Below are positions 18,786-55,632 of a stretch of DNA of 64,000 nt, piece after piece. Each line of letters starts with the position of its first letter. The first letter of the stretch is position 1. Source of the DNA: Clostridium sp. 'deep sea'. Lineage in GTDB: Bacteria > Bacillota > UBA994 > PWPR01. Where the stretch lies: positions 2,666,001 to 2,730,000 of the forward strand of contig NZ_CP063353.1 of assembly GCF_014931565.1 (NCBI RefSeq), given 5' to 3'. The position numbers and the translations under genes are program-made. The notes below the pieces were generated by a model. It had not been told where the DNA came from. It saw only the letters and a list, made by a program, of their open reading frames with translations, and did not search any database.

Positions 18786-20495
18786 ATGGGTGTTATGAAA
18801 ACAACTGCAAGTATTCTTAGAACACTATCAGCTAAATGTAGAGACTGTTACCGTTGCGTAAGAGTATGTCCAGTTAAAGCAATTGGTATTAAAAATAATC
18901 AGGCCTACATTGATACTGATAGATGTATAAATTGTGGAACCTGTGTTAGAGAATGTCCCCAAAATGCAAAGGTCTACAGAGATGATACCGAAAAAGTAAC
19001 CTCTATCTTAAAGAATAACACTGTAGTTGCGAGTATAGCACCATCCTTTAGTTCTATTTACGACAGGGCACTTGCTAAACGATTACCTTCTGCCCTACGC
19101 AAACTAGGGTTTGCTCATGTCAGTGAGACTTCAGAAGGTGCTACCATTATAACAAATAAAGCCATAGAATTATTGTCAAACCCCAATAATAAAGCAGGCA
19201 TTTGTACTGCTTGCCCTGTCGTAGTGAACTATGTTGAAAAATATAGGCCTGAATTTATTGATAAACTCTTGCCAGTAGTTTCGCCTATGATAGCTCATGG
19301 CAAACTACTAAAACAAAGATATGGTGACATTAAGGTTGTTTTTATTGGCCCATGTATAGCAAAAAAACAAGAAGCTGAGCGTAGTGAGTTCAGCGGAATA
19401 ATTGATGCTGTCTTAACCTTTACTGAGTTAAATAATATGCTACAAGAACATGAAATTAATTTAAACAATTGCCCCGAAAGTGATTTCGATAATGCCATAT
19501 CTTTAGGACACTCAAAGCTTTTTGCTCTTCCTGGTGGTATGCTAAAGACTGCTGGAATTGTTGATGACGGCATTAAAAATGAAGTTATTAATATTAGTGG
19601 GGCTAATAATATTATGAATTTATTTGATGTATTAAATACTAACACAGATTTTACAATAGTTGAACCTTTATTTTGCGATGGAGGTTGTATTAATGGCCCT
19701 GGATTAAAATCTGAAAAGAACATATTTCAGCGTAGGGCAGATTTAATAGAGTATGCTAATCGTAAGGTTAAAAAACCATATCAGGTCGAGGAAAAAACTC
19801 AGATTGATTTATTAACTGAGTTTAATTGCGGTTTAAACGTAAATAATGATAATATAACAGAGCAACAAATAGAAGAGGTATACCGACTTACCGATAAAGC
19901 TAACCCCGAGGCTCGATTAGATTGTGGTGCCTGTGGTTATTCAAGTTGCCGAGAAAAAGCGAAAGCAGTTATTAGGGGCATGGCCGAAATTGAAATGTGT
20001 ATGCCTTATATGCGTAAGCTAGCTGACTTACGTACAGATAAAATACTTGAAAGAAGCCCTAATGGCATTGTTATACTAGATGAGGAAATGAGAATAATAA
20101 CTATGAATCCTGCTTTCTGCAATTATTTTTCCTGTGGTAAGGCCTTATTGGGTAGAAAAATATCCTATTTGCTTGATGCAGAAGAATACGAAAAAGTTGC
20201 CACAAAAACACTCGAGAACTCAGAAGTAGTAGTTAATAGATATGGTAAAAAATATCAGCAAATAGTTTATTATATACCAACTGCAAAACAGTATGTTGGA
20301 ATTTACAACGATATAAGTGGCTTAAAGTTAACCGAAGAGAAGCTTAATAATATAAAAAAGCAAACAGTAGAACAGGCTCAAGAATTGCTTAACCATCAAA
20401 TTGAAATGGCTATGACTATGGCCAAATTTTTGGGTGAAAACACAGCTAAAGGCGAGGCTCTAGTGGAAAGGCTGATGAAGATTTATGAAAAATAA
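18786..20495 (+). CDS. hydS: Sensory (group C, HydS-type) [FeFe]-hydrogenase-like protein with PAS domain
   Basis: A 569-residue protein. Domains: two [4Fe-4S] motifs (CRDCYRCVRVCP, CINCGTCVRECP; 16-60), an H-cluster domain with altered signatures (L1 TACPVVV near 139, L2 GPCIAKK near 188, L3 FCDGGCINGPG near 296), an extra [4Fe-4S] motif DCGACGYSSC near 379, a PAS domain (about 418-515) and a C-terminal coiled helix. The H-cluster cysteine ligands remain, but the proton-relay cysteine of TSCCP is Ala, as known for group C sensory hydrogenases. It overlaps the downstream phosphatase by 11 bp. The likely role is sensing H2 or redox state and signalling through that phosphatase to control hydrogenase genes. 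Confidence 0.88.
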   Translation: MGVMKTTASILRTLSAKCRDCYRCVRVCPVKAIGIKNNQAYIDTDRCINCGTCVRECPQNAKVYRDDTEKVTSILKNNTVVASIAPSFSSIYDRALAKRLPSALRKLGFAHVSETSEGATIITNKAIELLSNPNNKAGICTACPVVVNYVEKYRPEFIDKLLPVVSPMIAHGKLLKQRYGDIKVVFIGPCIAKKQEAERSEFSGIIDAVLTFTELNNMLQEHEINLNNCPESDFDNAISLGHSKLFALPGGMLKTAGIVDDGIKNEVINISGANNIMNLFDVLNTNTDFTIVEPLFCDGGCINGPGLKSEKNIFQRRADLIEYANRKVKKPYQVEEKTQIDLLTEFNCGLNVNNDNITEQQIEEVYRLTDKANPEARLDCGACGYSSCREKAKAVIRGMAEIEMCMPYMRKLADLRTDKILERSPNGIVILDEEMRIITMNPAFCNYFSCGKALLGRKISYLLDAEEYEKVATKTLENSEVVVNRYGKKYQQIVYYIPTAKQYVGIYNDISGLKLTEEKLNNIKKQTVEQAQELLNHQIEMAMTMAKFLGENTAKGEALVERLMKIYEK

Positions 20496-21693
20496 CAGTA
20501 CATCTCACGCTCTAAAAAGCGTATGTCCTTATGATCCTAGTAGACTAGATTCAATTCATATAAACTGTGAGGTTATGCAAGAAAAAAAATATAATCAAAA
20601 TGTTTGTGGTGATTATTACCTAATACACCGAACTGCTAAACAGACTATTTTTATTTTAACAGATGGCATCGGCTCTGGCATTAAAGCTAATATTGCCGCT
20701 ATTATGTGTGCAAATAGATTGTTAACCTTAATACAATCAGGGATTTCCCTGTTAGGAGCCTGTGAAAAAGTAGTAGAAATGATGCATAAAGCCCGTACAA
20801 CCAATATACCATTTGCGGCTTTTACCATAGCCAAAATATTAAACAATGGTAATTATACAATTTTTTCATACGAGAGCCCAGCTCCAATACTAATAGAGGG
20901 TACCGAAGCACAACAACTAAAACAAAGATTTTTTACTTTAAGTAAAGAGGTTGTCAGTGAGGTTGCTGGTTTACTAAAGCCTAATCAGTCTATTGTACTA
21001 GTTAGTGATGGAGTTAGCCAAGCAGGTTTAGGGATTATTAAAGGTTTAGGTTGGGGTACAGAGGGACTATTGAGGTATTTAAATGCAAAATTAAAAACAA
21101 CTCAAGATGTTAAAGAAATAATGCAAGGTACCTTTAATAGAGTTTATGAATTATCCGAAAATATTCATAGAGATGATATTTCTATGGCGCTATTAACCTG
21201 TAATCAGGCCAAGGTTCTAAACATTTTAACGGGTCCTGCAACCTATAAAAGAGACGACAAAAAGCTAATAGATGCCTTTATAAATAATGGTGGACATAAA
21301 ATTGTTTGTGGGTCTACCACAGCCGAAATAGTATCACGGGTACTCAATAAACCAGTAGAAGTAGTTAAAATATCACCATCTTTTGATCAGCCCCCACAAT
21401 ACGATATTGAGGGTGTAGATATAGTAACAGAAGGCGCAGTTACTTTAAACCAAGTTTATAATATACTCGAAGAGAGCGAAGACACCTATAATAAAGAAAG
21501 CTGTGTAAGTGTAATAGCGGAGCTAATGAAAGAAGCAGATATTGTTAAATTTTACATTGGGGGAGCCGTAAACCCTGGACATAAAGAAATAACCTTTAAA
21601 CAACTAGGGGTATTACCCCGTAAAACTATAGTAAATTTAATAGTTAATAAACTCAAAAAAATGGGTAAAACAGTTACAGAGTATTATAAGTAA
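20485..21693 (+). CDS. SpoIIE/PP2C-type serine/threonine phosphatase
   Basis: A 402-residue protein with an N-terminal PP2C-like SpoIIE domain (metal-binding Asp residues in ILTDGIGSG near 52 and LVSDGVSQAG near 172, and HRDDISMALL near 230) and a C-terminal domain of about 150 residues beginning near 250 that I cannot name. Such phosphatases are established neighbours of HydS-type hydrogenases. The start overlaps hydS by 11 bp, so stoichiometric expression and a direct HydS-phosphatase signalling pair are likely. The target phosphoprotein is not encoded nearby. It is the last gene of the hydrogenase operon and is followed directly by a hairpin array. Confidence 0.85.
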   Translation: MKNNSTSHALKSVCPYDPSRLDSIHINCEVMQEKKYNQNVCGDYYLIHRTAKQTIFILTDGIGSGIKANIAAIMCANRLLTLIQSGISLLGACEKVVEMMHKARTTNIPFAAFTIAKILNNGNYTIFSYESPAPILIEGTEAQQLKQRFFTLSKEVVSEVAGLLKPNQSIVLVSDGVSQAGLGIIKGLGWGTEGLLRYLNAKLKTTQDVKEIMQGTFNRVYELSENIHRDDISMALLTCNQAKVLNILTGPATYKRDDKKLIDAFINNGGHKIVCGSTTAEIVSRVLNKPVEVVKISPSFDQPPQYDIEGVDIVTEGAVTLNQVYNILEESEDTYNKESCVSVIAELMKEADIVKFYIGGAVNPGHKEITFKQLGVLPRKTIVNLIVNKLKKMGKTVTEYYK

Positions 21694-21812
21694 TGGAGCT
21701 TTTAGCTCCGTAGTGTACTCGCTTTTTAGAAGCGTCGTGTGGTGAGCATTTCACTAGTGAAATACGTAGTGTACTAACCTTCGGTTGCGTGTGGTGTATT
21801 TGCTTTGCAAAT
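21694..21812. repeat. Array of five short palindromes with alternating conserved linkers
   Basis: Directly after the phosphatase stop come five unrelated hairpins: GGAGCTTTTAGCTCC, CGCTTTTTAGAAGCG, ATTTCACTAGTGAAAT, AACCTTCGGTT and ATTTGCTTTGCAAAT. They are separated by two alternating linkers, CGTAGTGTACT (twice) and CGTGTGGTG (twice). The two-hairpin period is about 53 bp. There is no ORF and no long T-run, so it is not a simple terminator. Confidence 0.8.
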
Positions 21813-21842
21813 GTAATTAGTAACCTAATATAAAATTGAAAT

Positions 21843-22307
21843 TTATTTAATAAATATTTCTATTAGGTTACTTTCTATAATAGAATCATTGACTTTATTT
21901 ATGTAATTATAGTTTTGTATGGGAGTATTTTGGTCCATAGCATTATTTATACTTTGAATTATTTTATAAAACTCTGTAATTTTTTTGCGACAATTAATTC
22001 TATCCTGCATTGAATCTATAGATTGAATTTCTTTTGAAGCCTCACATAAACAGTAGTTTATACTATCTAACGGTTTATTGAAAAGCTTTGCAGAATTATT
22101 AAACAAAAAGCTTATACTATTGTAATTGAATTCTAAACTATCAATATCTAAGATTTTTAAACTGTGTTCTAAAGTTGTCTGTAAGTATTCAAGTTTTGAT
22201 TTATAGTCTAAACCTACTAATTTCATTAGGTTATTATACTGAGCACATAAAATTATACTTATTAAAACCAAAGATAATAATATAATAAAATATCTCTTTT
22301 TTACCAT
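21843..22307 (-). CDS. Small membrane-anchored protein of unknown function
   Basis: A 154-residue protein with one N-terminal transmembrane segment (about residues 6-23) and a helical extracytoplasmic region, rich in Ile, Asn, Leu and Ser. There is no known motif. Its layout (KK-rich start, single anchor, coiled helical body of 130-150 residues) matches the pair at 3631-4698, suggesting a lineage-specific family, although by-eye identity is weak. The start at 22307 on the reverse strand has GAGGTAGG upstream. It lies convergent with the hairpin array and divergent from the toxin locus. Confidence 0.6.
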   Translation of the reverse strand: MVKKRYFIILLSLVLISIILCAQYNNLMKLVGLDYKSKLEYLQTTLEHSLKILDIDSLEFNYNSISFLFNNSAKLFNKPLDSINYCLCEASKEIQSIDSMQDRINCRKKITEFYKIIQSINNAMDQNTPIQNYNYINKVNDSIIESNLIEIFIK

Positions 22308-32373: not shown

Positions 32374-32403
32374 CAACCCTTTTGGTTTGGGCTCATTTCA
32401 TAT

Positions 32404-32579
32404 GGCGGGGTGGGTATGCATGGCATACGGTGTGGGCTTGAGCTAAAGCTCTTCACGGAGTGGGTTAACCTTTTGGTTAACGGTTTAGTATTCTCGATAC
32501 CACATCACATAATATCCGCGTAAGCCCAATCCGCGAAACGAAGTGCAGCCCATACAATGAAGTGAAATCGAATCCACCC
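32404..32579. repeat. Multi-hairpin element, long copy
   Basis: A string of hairpins (GTATGC-ATG-GCATAC, GAGCT-AA-AGCTC, GTTAACCTTTTGGTTAAC, GTATTCTCGATAC, CGCG...CGCG) with GTGTGG/GAGTGG linkers, bounded by GGGGTGGG at the left and CCACCC at the right, which can pair. The right 108 bp (32472-32579) recur at 34365-34472 in the same orientation with about eight differences by eye. Confidence 0.8.
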
Positions 32580-33087
32580 TGTTTTATAAACTCTCTCCAA
32601 AAAAAAGTAATGTTTCATTTTAACCCTATTCTAATATAACATTTCGCATTTAGCCTCTAAGCCTGCTAGATAAAAGTCTTGCCATATTTTTTATTACAAT
32701 TTTTTTATACAAAAGCATACTTATCTGTATTGTCCTTGCGATTGATTACAAAGGATATCAATAATTTAATTGATGAATACAGAATATTAATAAAAGGTGT
32801 TACATTTTGAATAGTAGTTATAGAAATAAACAGTGGATAAATTAATTTATATGCTACCAATTAGGTCTTAAAAATGACCAATTGAAAAATATTTTACACG
32901 AATATGTTTAAAGATAGTAAAATACCAATATATATGGAGGTAATTTGGTTATTTACAAGAAAATAAAAATTTAGTTATGGTATTCATACATCAGTAGTTC
33001 GGTGATATATTAGTAAGATAAAAAACAATTAAAGAAATAATCAACGTTGTTCTAAACACATTAAAAATATAACTGAGGAGTTTAAAA
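32580..33087. other. AT-rich gap without a gene
   Basis: About 500 bp between the repeat and a secreted-protein gene. I see no ORF with a ribosome site. The last 27 bases include TGAGGAG before the ATG at 33088. It may contain that gene's promoter, but no hexamer pair stands out. Confidence 0.5.
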
Positions 33088-33787
33088 ATGATTAATAAAA
33101 TTGTAAAATTGTATTCTTTTAAGTTTATGCTGTTATCATTACTTATCGTAAGCCTATTATGTTTACACGTAAATAATGTTCATGCTTTGGAAGTTCAAAA
33201 TATTGCTGAATTTAGGTTTGTTGATACTGATGGAGTAGAAATAAAGGATATTGATTGCCAATTCTATATGTATGATAGTAATGGTAATATAATTGAAATT
33301 GGAAAAGCTATTAAAAATGAATACGGGGCATACTATTTAAATAATAGTTTGATAGATTTCAATAAAATTGGAGATAGTGATTATGTACACTTTAACCTGA
33401 AAGCTTTTGCTACAGGTAAACGCTTAATATCATATGACTGGTCAGAGAAAAGAAGTAATCTTGAAAATAGATTTAGTAGATTGAGTATTGATAAACAGAG
33501 TATAAATAAAGCAAAAGAACTAACAATGATTAGCTTAAATCAATGGTCAAACACCTCAAGGAACTAAAGTATTATTAGTAAAAGGAGGAGATAGAAAAGA
33601 ACGGATGTCTGGAAGCGTAACGTATACAGCAGGCTAGACTTATGGAGGTGCTTCAATGCAGAATAAAGTTGCTTACGGATCCTCATCAGAGATATTTCAT
33701 AGAAACGATGATGCACTAGGTGTAGAATACACAGTATTCAAACCAGATGCAGGTAGAGACATTTGGTATGCTACAAGAACAAAATAA
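33088..33787 (+). pseudogene. Secreted protein gene, frameshifted and with an internal stop
   Basis: The first 159 codons give a signal peptide (MINKIVKLYSFKFMLLSLLI, ending near VHA) and a beta-rich region to a stop at 33565-33567. Just before this stop another frame opens, reading TPQGTKVLLVKGGDRKERMSG and onward, passes a TAG at about 33635 and ends at 33787 with a plausible protein end (EYTVFKPDAGRDIWYATRTK). Taken together, one secreted protein of about 230 residues has suffered a frameshift and a nonsense mutation. Function unknown. It lies between the two direct repeats. Confidence 0.6.
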
Positions 33788-34280
33788 ACGTATTATCATA
33801 GTCGTTGTCATAATTAGTATCTCTATTATAGGTATATTATCCTATAATAGCTTAAAAGATTATGCTAATAAACAGGTTCTTATAAGCTGGGTAGGATTAA
33901 CACAACATCCTGGTGTGACTGAAAAAGATAACAATCTAGTTAACATAGTACATGTAATTCATGGTCCAAAAAATGGTAAATTAGCACTTCAGGAAGTAGA
34001 AATTGATGATTATTATGATATGGAATTAATCGAGACCCATTTTTATAGGGGTGAAGCTAGGGATATTCCTTGGTTTGGTAAAATACCTGATTCAGTAAAA
34101 AGTAAATTTAGCAATATTAAAGGGGCTGTGCTAACTAAGGATGCTAATAGCATGCATGACTATATTATTACTACATTTAAAATTACTGGAGATTCTCCAA
34201 AAGGTAGCTTTAAGAAGAGAGTTGTCTATAATTGGTATTTTATTAAGTGTGAGATAATCAGAGAGACTGAACCATATTAG
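33768..34280 (+). CDS. Membrane-anchored hypothetical protein
   Basis: A 170-residue protein if started at the ATG at 33768, overlapping the end of the preceding pseudogene by 20 bp; an ATG at 33747 adds seven residues. One transmembrane segment (about residues 8-24) is followed by an extracytoplasmic domain of about 140 residues with no motif I recognise. Neither start has a strong ribosome site. A terminator follows directly. Confidence 0.55.
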   Translation: MLQEQNKRIIIVVVIISISIIGILSYNSLKDYANKQVLISWVGLTQHPGVTEKDNNLVNIVHVIHGPKNGKLALQEVEIDDYYDMELIETHFYRGEARDIPWFGKIPDSVKSKFSNIKGAVLTKDANSMHDYIITTFKITGDSPKGSFKKRVVYNWYFIKCEIIRETEPY

Positions 34281-34317
34281 TTATTTTATAGCTACATACT
34301 TATAATTAAATAGAGGG

Positions 34318-34361
34318 AGCTGTCACATTATAATAAAAATGCGAATGTGGCAGCTTTTTTA
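34318..34361 (+). terminator. Terminator after the membrane-anchored protein
   Basis: AGCTGTCACATT (34318-34329) pairs with AATGTGGCAGCT (34344-34355) with one G-T pair, followed by TTTTTT. Confidence 0.8.
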
Positions 34362-34364
34362 AAC

Positions 34365-34500
34365 TTTGGTTAACGGTTTAGTATTCACACTACCACATCA
34401 CTTAATATCCGCGTTAGCCCAATCCGCGAAACGAAGTGCAGCCCATACCATGAGGTGAAACCGAATCCACCCCGTGTTTCATTTATGAAACACCCACCCC
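34365..34500. repeat. Multi-hairpin element, short copy
   Basis: The first 108 bp duplicate 32472-32579 in direct orientation. A palindrome GTGTTTCAT-TT-ATGAAACAC (about 34473-34492) and CACCCACCCC follow. The left hairpins of the long copy are missing, so this is a truncated copy. Confidence 0.8.
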
Positions 34501-34510
34501 AAAATAAAAA

Positions 34511-34528
34511 GGCGCTACTAAAAGCGCC
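34511..34528 (-). terminator. Terminator of the GGDEF/HD-GYP gene
   Basis: Reverse strand: GGCGCT-TTTAGT-AGCGCC followed by TTTTTATTTT. It sits 6 bp past the stop codon. Confidence 0.8.
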
Positions 34529-34533
34529 AATTT

Positions 34534-44277: not shown

Positions 44278-44374
44278 GGGAGTAGATAGGTGCTGGTGTG
44301 CCTACTGGACTTCAAATCCAGCTTCGGGTGTTAAGAGCATCCGGGGTGGGTTCGATTCCCACATACTCCCGCCA
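44278..44374 (+). tRNA. selC: tRNA-Sec (UCA anticodon)
   Basis: A 97-nt tRNA with acceptor GGGAGTA / TACTCCC, discriminator G and encoded CCA. The anticodon stem-loop CTGGA-CTTCAAA-TCCAG gives anticodon TCA. The long variable arm (CGGGTG...CATCCG) and T arm (GTGGG-TTCGATT-CCCAC) mark it as selenocysteine tRNA. It reads UGA in the selD, grdA and grdB genes of this window with the help of SelB and SelA, which are not in the window. Own promoter and terminator are present. Confidence 0.93.
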
Positions 44375-49869: not shown

Positions 49870-49904
49870 ATAGATATAATATAATTTAATAGGCTGGTTG
49901 AGCT

Positions 49905-50062
49905 AAACGGGAGAGACTTCGTAAAGAAGCGCCGAAGGAGCAATAATTGTTTTTTTACCAAAATAATTAGAAACTCTCAGGCAAAAGGACCGCTTAGGGA
50001 CAGTCCTCTGGAGAGTTACTAAAGTAACACCGAAGGAGATTAATCTCTCAGGTAAACAAGAC
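49905..50062 (+). ncRNA. Tandem glycine riboswitch
   Basis: Two glycine aptamers in series. The first shows GGGAGAGAC, GCGCCGAAGGAGCAA and AAACTCTCAGGCAAAAGGACCGC. The second shows CTCTGGAGAGT, ACACCGAAGGAG and ATCTCTCAGGTAAACAAGACAGAG. Both carry the conserved cores of the family. The last bases of the second aptamer overlap the terminator stem that follows, so glycine binding can affect termination. It leads into the glycine reductase genes, so it is probably an ON switch that turns them up when glycine is present. Confidence 0.95.
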
Positions 50063-50104
50063 AGAGTGGCATATGGTTATGCTATTTCTGTCTTTTATTT
50101 TTTT
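50060..50104 (+). terminator. Expression platform terminator of the glycine riboswitch
   Basis: GACAGA (50060-50065) pairs with TCTGTC (50087-50092), with inner GCATA/TATGC pairing, followed by TTTTATTTTTTT. The left arm overlaps the end of aptamer 2, so ligand binding would compete with it. Confidence 0.8.
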
Positions 50105-54318: not shown

Positions 54319-55632
54319 ATGATCGATAAAATCAGAGTAGTTTGGTATTTAAACCAATTCTTTGGTCAAATCGGCGGTGAGGATAAAGCAGATATTCCAC
54401 CCCAAAAACATGAGGGTGGCATTGGTCCAGCTGCTGGAGCCGGTAGATTACTTGGAGATAGAGCTGAAGTTGTTGGCACAGTAATTTGCGGAGACACATA
54501 TTTTGGTGAGAATGTTGACGCTGCTTCAGATAAAGTTGTTGAGTTAATTTCTAGTTTACAGCCTAATATTGTAATTGCTGGTCCTGCATTTAACGCTGGA
54601 CGTTATGGAGTTGCTTGTGGTGCAGTTGCAAAAGCAGTTTCAGAGCAATTAAATATCCCAGTTATATCTGGTATGTATCCAGAGAACCCTGGTGTTGATA
54701 TGTATAAAAAATACGCTTACATGGTAGAAACAACAAATAGTGCTGCCGGTATGCGTAAGGCTTTACCATCTATTATTAAACTAGCTCTTAAAGTAGCATC
54801 AGGAGAGCCTATGGGAACACCTGCAGAAGAGGGTTACATGGCTCGTGGAGTTAGAGTTAACGTTTTTGCAGAAGAACGTGGTTCTAAACGTGCTGTAAAT
54901 ATGTTAATGAAAAAGTTACGTGGCGAAGAATTTGAAACAGAATATCCAATGCCTAACTTTGACAGAGTTGAACCAAATAAGCCTGTTGTAGATTTAAGTA
55001 AAGCTAAAATTGCATTAGTTACATCTGGTGGTATTGTACCAAAGCATAACCCAGATCACATTGAGTCTTCTTCTGCTTCTAAATATGGTAAATACGATAT
55101 TGCTAATTTTAACGAATTATCAGAAGCTGATCATGAAACAGCTCATGGTGGATATGACCCAACTTATGCAAACACAAATCCTAACCGCGTATTACCAGTT
55201 GATGTATTACGTGATATGGAAAAAGAAGGTCTAATCGGTGAGTTACATCGTTACTTCTATACAACTGTAGGTAACGGAACAGCTGTTGCTAGTTCTAAGA
55301 AATTTGCTGAAACATATTCTCAAGAATTACTTGCTGATGGTGTGGATGCAGTAATTTTAACCAGTACTTGAGGAACCTGTACACGTTGCGGTGCAACGAT
55401 GGTTAAAGAGATTGAAAGAGCTGGTATTCCTGTAGTTCATATGTGTACAATTGTACCTATATCACTAACAGTAGGAGCTAACAGAATTGTTCCTACAATA
55501 GCTATTCCATATCCACTAGGTAATCCAAAATTACCTGCTGAAGATGAGAAAAAGCTTCGTCGTGAGTTAGTTGAAAAAGCTTTAGAAGCACTAAAAACTG
55601 AAGTTAACGGCCAAACCGTATTTGATAACTAA
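54319..55632 (+). CDS. grdB: Glycine reductase component B selenoprotein GrdB (Sec351)
   Basis: A 437-residue protein if read through the in-frame TGA at 55369-55371 (residue 351) in TST-Sec-GTCTRCGATMV. The first part alone ends there (54319-55368). A bacterial SECIS hairpin CGTTGC-GGT-GCAACG (55384-55398) begins 12 bases past the UGA. The start is the ATG at 54319 with AAGGGAGG upstream; an earlier ATG at 54298 is in frame but upstream of that site. The substrate-binding selenol attacks the Schiff base of glycine on the pyruvoyl group of GrdE and releases ammonia. Confidence 0.97.
55384..55398 (+). promoter_or_regulatory. SECIS-type hairpin in grdB
   Basis: CGTTGC-GGT-GCAACG, a perfect 6-bp stem with a 3-base loop, 12 bases downstream of the UGA at 55369-55371. 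Confidence 0.7.

Follow-up and report, generated by a model that had tools for sequence, protein, structure and literature searches.

REP families combine a conserved palindrome with a conserved four-nucleotide tag, GTAG/GTRG (or CGTC), at the foot of the hairpin. To our knowledge, the known bacterial palindromic repeats all keep their palindrome. In the array family described here, in contrast, linker and folding are kept and it is the palindromes that vary. HUH/Y1 enzymes recognise a single-stranded hairpin together with a short guide at its 5′ foot; TnpA_REP enzymes recognise a 5′ tetranucleotide, the E. coli enzyme needs a mismatch in the stem, and the group 3 relatives of this enzyme accept perfect stems (PMC8266576). 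Compensatory changes have been described in the middle of REPIN hairpins (PMC3116915), and head-to-tail dimers of REP are rare (PMC3733652). MITEs are short, non-coding, intergenic elements with inverted ends that are found in multiple copies at unrelated sites (PMC10969869), and TIRYT elements are characterised by a Y1 transposase with a DnaA_C domain (PMC6006769). Double-hairpin elements of Allomyces mitochondria are cited as mobile hairpin elements (mentioned in PMC7218506). In the limited set of papers searched, nothing matching constant-linker arrays was found.

The array downstream of the SpoIIE-domain gene

The window, i.e. the whole stretch of 64 kb that was analysed, carries an array of five hairpins and short constant pieces at 21695-21819. 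It begins past the stop codon of a SpoIIE-domain gene (20485-21693, + strand) and is followed by a small convergent ORF (21843-22307, − strand). The closing pairs of adjacent hairpins are exactly 7 nt apart. These seven nucleotides read GTAGTGT, GTGGTGA, GTAGTGT and GTGGTGT, followed by a degenerate GTAATTA, so that the array is parsed as GGAGCTTTTAGCTCC / GTAGTGT / ACTCGCTTTTTAGAAGCGTCGT / GTGGTGA / GCATTTCACTAGTGAAATAC / GTAGTGT / ACTAACCTTCGGTTGCGT / GTGGTGT / ATTTGCTTTGCAAAT / GTAATTA. Its parts are as follows, with the hairpin classes A and B as defined in the next section.

21695-21709, + strand: hairpin 1, GGAGCTTTTAGCTCC, the outermost; outside the aligned homology with the copies e2487 and e3117
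21710-21716, + strand: linker GTAGTGT, from the exact 7-nt spacing of closing pairs
21717-21738, + strand: class B hairpin ACTCGCTTTTTAGAAGCGTCGT, outer pairs AC/GT
21739-21745, + strand: linker GTGGTGA, from the 7-nt spacing
21746-21765, + strand: class A hairpin GCATTTCACTAGTGAAATAC, with one C.A mismatch
21766-21772, + strand: linker GTAGTGT, from the 7-nt spacing
21773-21790, + strand: class B-type hairpin ACTAACCTTCGGTTGCGT
21791-21797, + strand: linker GTGGTGT, from the 7-nt spacing
21798-21812, + strand: class A hairpin ATTTGCTTTGCAAAT, which adjoins the hub in other copies
21813-21819, + strand: degenerate linker or start of a lost hub, GTAATTA, where the homology with sister copies stops

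The five hairpins and both repeated strings that a sequence-only reading had reported are all present at this place. That reading had also proposed two alternating linkers. The two strings, CGTAGTGTACT (11 nt) and CGTGTGGTG (9 nt), do occur twice each in the 64 kb, with all copies inside this array, but the linker is of one kind, 7 nt long, and what alternates is the hairpin class. CGTAGTGTACT consists of c, GTAGTGT and act, and CGTGTGGTG of cgt and GTGGTG; the letters flanking the linker in both strings belong to the class B stems of the second and fourth hairpins. The appearance of two linkers therefore arises from the alternation of classes A and B. A match to the one-unit covariance model at 21739-21772 corresponds to GCATTTCACTAGTGAAATAC with both its linkers.

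Searching the host genome (3.83 Mb, one contig) with blastn revealed two long relatives of the array, at C1:2487455-2487555 (e2487) and C1:3117362-3117450 (e3117), and partial relatives at further loci, so that the linkers are not confined to this locus. The homology with the sister copies begins only after hairpin 1, for which reason GGAGCTTTTAGCTCC may be a hairpin of the host. Judged by this alignment, the array possibly starts at the foot of GGAGCTTTTAGCTCC.

Two further copies are found in the window.

32384-32598, + strand: second copy, two-armed, with left arm GGTTTGG..GGAGTGG, hub GGTTTAGTATTC.. and a right arm ending in TCTCTCC
34364-34500, − strand: third copy, consisting of hub and right arm (CC-linker strand)

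The second copy begins at the foot of the terminator hairpin AAAAGGGTTGCTCGGTAGCAACCCTTTT. The third shows 91% identity to 32472-32585 over 114 bp.

A family with constant linkers, paired hairpins and two arms

At related loci the commoner form of the linker was read as GGNNTGG, mostly GGGGTGG, with GGTTTGG, GGAGTGG and GGTGTGG as further variants. The window array uses a dialect of this form, mostly with T at positions 2 and 7. With a relaxed pattern of two linkers, 59 matches were obtained, compared to 17 for the reversed control; as this control was not zero, the matches were checked by a hairpin test. In 38 loci, 152 linker-hairpin-linker units were counted, whereas mononucleotide-shuffled versions of these loci had 2.2 on average. 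Based on searches and the stretches around matches, the genome contains no fewer than 155 units, spread over at least 53 loci, 42 of which have two or more units. When 150 candidates were scored with the one-unit covariance model, at least 115 matches at E ≤ 1 were obtained in the host genome. The hairpins measure about 13-23 nt, to which the linkers are added. With 129 distinct hairpins among 155 units, the palindromes are diverse, but they are not entirely unrelated as had been suggested, since several recur with small changes (e.g. GTATTTCAC..GTGAAATAC and ATTTGCTTTGCAAAT). The proposal that linkers are constant while hairpins vary holds genome-wide and across two species.

Pairing is kept while the hairpin sequence changes, as had also been proposed. 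Across 24 equally long units, 78% of the stem cells were paired, compared to 52% after shuffling, and the covariation score was 0.558, compared to 0.205 in shuffles. None of 500 shuffles reached the score or the paired share, and the covariation signal was lost when the alignment was slid. The parser imposed an outer G-C or A-T pair with the purine first and a Watson-Crick second pair; the second pair was T-A or C-G in 124 of 129 hairpins, a bias that was not imposed. Two classes can be distinguished. In class A (n = 75, RT..AY) the four outer pairs are all Watson-Crick, in most cases GT/AC or AT/AT. Class B (n = 45, RC..GY) starts with two covarying outer pairs, most often GC/GC, AC/GT or GT/AC; the next two positions are mismatched, and nearly always a pyrimidine faces a pyrimidine there (TC or TT opposite TC; GA opposite GA on the other strand). 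Adjacent hairpins were of different class in 41 cases (A-B or B-A), A-A in 10 and B-B in one. Frequent loops are C-TTT-G and C-TTC-G, or C-AAA-G and C-GAA-G on the other strand. In some class B hairpins (in L032, L023, L017, L065, L013, L014 and L009) an insert of about 45 nt, similar to ATGTTTTATAAGGTAATGATTTTATTACGCTACGCTCCATAAAACAT, is present, and this insert is a hairpin too.

A complete element comprises about 200-400 bp: a left arm of three to five hairpins with GGNNTGG linkers, then a hub, then a right arm that repeats the build of the left in inverted form. All 21 two-armed loci show the order GG-linker arm, hub, CC-linker arm, and the reverse order ('-+') was found in none; at one tandem locus the GG-arm/CC-arm pattern occurs three times over. 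In many copies the hub hairpin TAYACGTNNCGCTTTGCTTACGTGATA lies between the arms. One of its pairs changes from G-C to A-T in 5 of 15 rows, with a modest covariation of the hub overall, since its score was matched by 10 of 500 shuffles and other measures were weaker. The arms are inverted in architecture and keep a constant order, without a single constant terminal repeat. Elements that are homologous from end to end occur at unrelated sites (346571-346850 and 1383816-1384093, 74% over 288 bp), and homologous arms were found beside different flanks. Single arms as in the window are common, as are half elements and fragments. The window array is probably a broken and drifted single arm, in the GTRGTGT dialect, of such a dispersed element. 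The earlier idea that arrays grow by insertion of single hairpins is not supported: positions follow the same order from copy to copy, and homology extends over entire arms or elements.

The opposite polarity of the two arms raises the idea that one arm pairs with the other by means of complementary linkers (GGGGTGG and CCACCCC) to form a ladder of four-way junctions, which would keep the linkers constant. Besides the complementarity of left and right linkers and the fixed polarity of the arms, some hubs are flanked by long complementary stretches, GGTTTGGGCTAGCGCGG in left arms and CCGCGCCAGCCCAAACC in right arms. However, swapped arms were at least as good as native arms in 79% of permutations as RNA and in 38% as DNA, the element at C1:3688018 combines a GTRGTGT-type left arm with a CCACCCC-type right arm, and single arms are frequent. 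We regard arm-arm pairing as very improbable.

Spread without any transposition was also considered; arrays would then multiply and diversify through tandem duplication on the spot, gene conversion, and template switching of replication at palindromes. Partial or whole elements have multiplied in tandem at C1:643541-644553 (L151) and C1:1568387-1569252 (L067), with periods of roughly 260 and 300 bp, and near-identical copies lie 2 kb apart in the window. At the tandem loci local duplication certainly happens. Such loci are a minority, though, and dispersed homologous copies with unrelated flanks and with ends at hairpin feet require a route to new sites, which makes duplication a quite unlikely account of the family.

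Placement at terminators and empty orthologous sites

Among 41 scored loci with a gene on both sides, the neighbours were codirectional in 25 cases, convergent in 15 and divergent in one. Copies sit downstream of genes, and the foot of a terminator hairpin is often their exact starting point. Of 54 arms, 13 begin immediately behind a terminator-like hairpin and its T-run, compared to 0.6% of all window positions, an enrichment that is an upper estimate because the background takes in coding DNA. The insertion points fall in hairpin/T-run DNA.

Two orthologous sites are empty in a genome of the same genus (G001), one of them also in a genome of the same family (G002). In G001, a terminator-like hairpin but no array comes after the ortholog of the SpoIIE gene (67% identity); in G002, a SpoIIE-like locus likewise has a terminator and no array. 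At the second site, the CofD/YvcK-like gene (yvcK) and a PAS-GGDEF-HD gene are 11 bp apart in G001, compared to about 2.2 kb here. This 2.2 kb (32374-34533), absent between the same two genes in G001, consists of two array copies flanking two ORFs without a Pfam match, and could be a composite insertion. From the comparison of these genomes, gain in this lineage would be a simpler reading than loss in both relatives. G001 has arrays of its own that follow this grammar and likewise use GGGGTGG and GGTTTGG as linkers, with largely different hairpins; one array uses GGTCTGG and GGGCTGG linkers. Linkers are therefore kept between the species and hairpins are not.

In a scan of 398 genomes of the phylum, performed at reduced sensitivity and with GG-type linkers only, arrays were detectable only in the host and in G001. 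No similar DNA was found in plasmid records, phage records or viral contigs. The sole exact match of the window's linker pair in GTDB contigs, on an Akkermansia contig, was judged to be due to chance, as this contig is G+C-rich and by eye shows no palindromic array.

The sequence-only reading had offered an RNA scaffold as one possible role. Arrays transcribed within 3′ UTRs or independently could bind a protein as a scaffold or stabilise mRNA, and this would fit the compensatory changes that conserve pairing, the internal loop and covarying outer pairs kept in class B, and the placement downstream of genes. Against it, no Rfam match was obtained for 10 loci at E 0.5, nor over the window array at the gathering threshold. 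As RNA, the window array folds no better than shuffles (z = −0.9), whereas as single-stranded DNA it folds better than 200 of 200 dinucleotide shuffles (z = −3.9). On the linker strand, stems contain 7 G.T and 6 C.A pairs, and without a preference for either, one functional strand is not indicated. The 13 of 54 arms that start just after a terminator should be little transcribed, and orthologous sites lack the arrays. A structured RNA is therefore improbable. Elsewhere in the window, Rfam detects a tRNA-Sec (44278-44370), a glycine riboswitch (49894-50068) and a SECIS element (55372-55409), indicating a selenoprotein-making host.

Whatever their origin, the arrays might also benefit the host in chromosomal architecture, by forming cruciforms to which a nucleoid protein or gyrase binds; a role of this kind has been proposed for some BIMEs. 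It would fit the high copy number of the arrays, their position between genes, the way they avoid divergent promoters, and their strong DNA hairpins. The same pattern fits a selfish element too, however, half elements and fragments are common, and the sister species does without arrays at orthologous sites; we consider this role unlikely.

Given homologous copies at different sites and empty orthologous sites, a mobile stem-loop repeat, another of the roles first suggested, is the best reading. The family is probably a dispersed non-autonomous mobile DNA element, similar to REPINs and MITEs, that would be recognised by its folded hairpins and linker, a mechanism that we partly infer. The element would move in single-stranded form, folded into hairpins. 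The linker at the foot would be read together with the fold by a nuclease or transposase acting in trans, which would accept both perfect and Y.Y-mismatched stems, by analogy with HUH/Y1 enzymes acting at REP and at IS200/IS605 ends. Such an enzyme would explain why linkers are constant and hairpins drift in pairs: linker, spacing, mismatches and pairing would be kept and the remainder would drift, as is observed. A more specific version is tentative and, in our estimate, rather doubtful. It holds that the arrays are mobile DNA recognised by shape, with an enzyme acting on alternating perfect and mismatched hairpins at 7-nt spacing, selection on linker and fold only, and landing at the foot of terminator hairpins. 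A hairpin-binding protein for the arrays is plausible.

Transposase genes of the host were inspected with regard to such an enzyme. The genome contains nine Y1_Tnp genes, and none of the eight examined has an array beside it except one IS200-type gene (L103 1230-2060; C1:1499485), which immediately adjoins the last part of an array and may simply have inserted there. The RAYT-like genes examined were rejected as the source of the arrays, as their flanks are free of arrays; two are bounded by inverted repeats of their own, GGGGTCAG, of the TIRYT kind. The Y1 transposase genes at L104 1408-2430 (with a DnaA_C domain) and L105 1399-2320 are bounded by TIRYT-like inverted repeats, GGGGTCAGGC. A RAYT-like gene in L106 is flanked by inverted GGGGACGGGTG repeats (about 827-968 and 1904-1968), and a similar repeat, GGGACGGGTG, lies inside a class A hairpin of an array at L066 (C1:1512351-1512602) as a nested insertion.

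With more than 100 hairpin variants in one genome, the family offers a natural experiment in DNA recognition by structure only, and its arrays supply defined substrates with which the protein that reads them could be sought.

Comparison with known mobile and repetitive elements

Like REP, BIME and REPIN sequences, the arrays are small intergenic palindromic repeats of high copy number in inverted arrangement; REP/REPIN palindromes measure about 20-40 bp. A G-rich motif at the 5′ foot of the hairpin recalls REP as well: GTGG directly precedes the hairpin in the commonest linkers (GGGGTGG, GGTGTGG and GGAGTGG), but with GGTTTGG these four nucleotides are TTGG, and in the window dialect GTGT. The alternation of perfect and mismatched stems recalls the two recognition modes of REP enzymes (PMC8266576), and REPINs, with compensatory changes confined to the middle of the hairpin, show a milder form of the array pattern (PMC3116915). 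In contrast to REP, the palindrome of the arrays varies while a 7-nt linker is constant, and head-to-tail arrangement is the rule. Also unlike REP and REPIN, no cognate RAYT gene flanked by arrays was found among the eight Y1_Tnp loci that were examined out of nine. With neither a conserved palindrome nor such a gene, the family is not REP or REPIN by these tests, although it may work like one.

The TIRYT-like genes L104 and L105 in this genome are bounded by inverted repeats that start with GGGG. These repeats (GGGGTCAGGC..) are not GGNNTGG linkers, and the arrays do not flank them. The Allomyces double-hairpin elements are organellar and belong to another lineage, so that the likeness would be a functional analogy only. 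The description of the arrays as the reverse of a CRISPR layout is borne out: constant and variable parts alternate regularly as in CRISPR, but their roles are reversed, the variable parts are themselves hairpins without a spacer-like origin, in place of unique spacers that are not self-complementary between identical repeats, and dozens of loci are dispersed over the genome. With MITEs the arrays share short length, lack of coding capacity, intergenic position, inverted ends and copies at unrelated sites; no single terminal inverted repeat was identified, and each arm is an array of hairpins. The family would widen REPIN/MITE biology, which deals with one pair of hairpins, to include arrays of many hairpins that are targeted to terminators.
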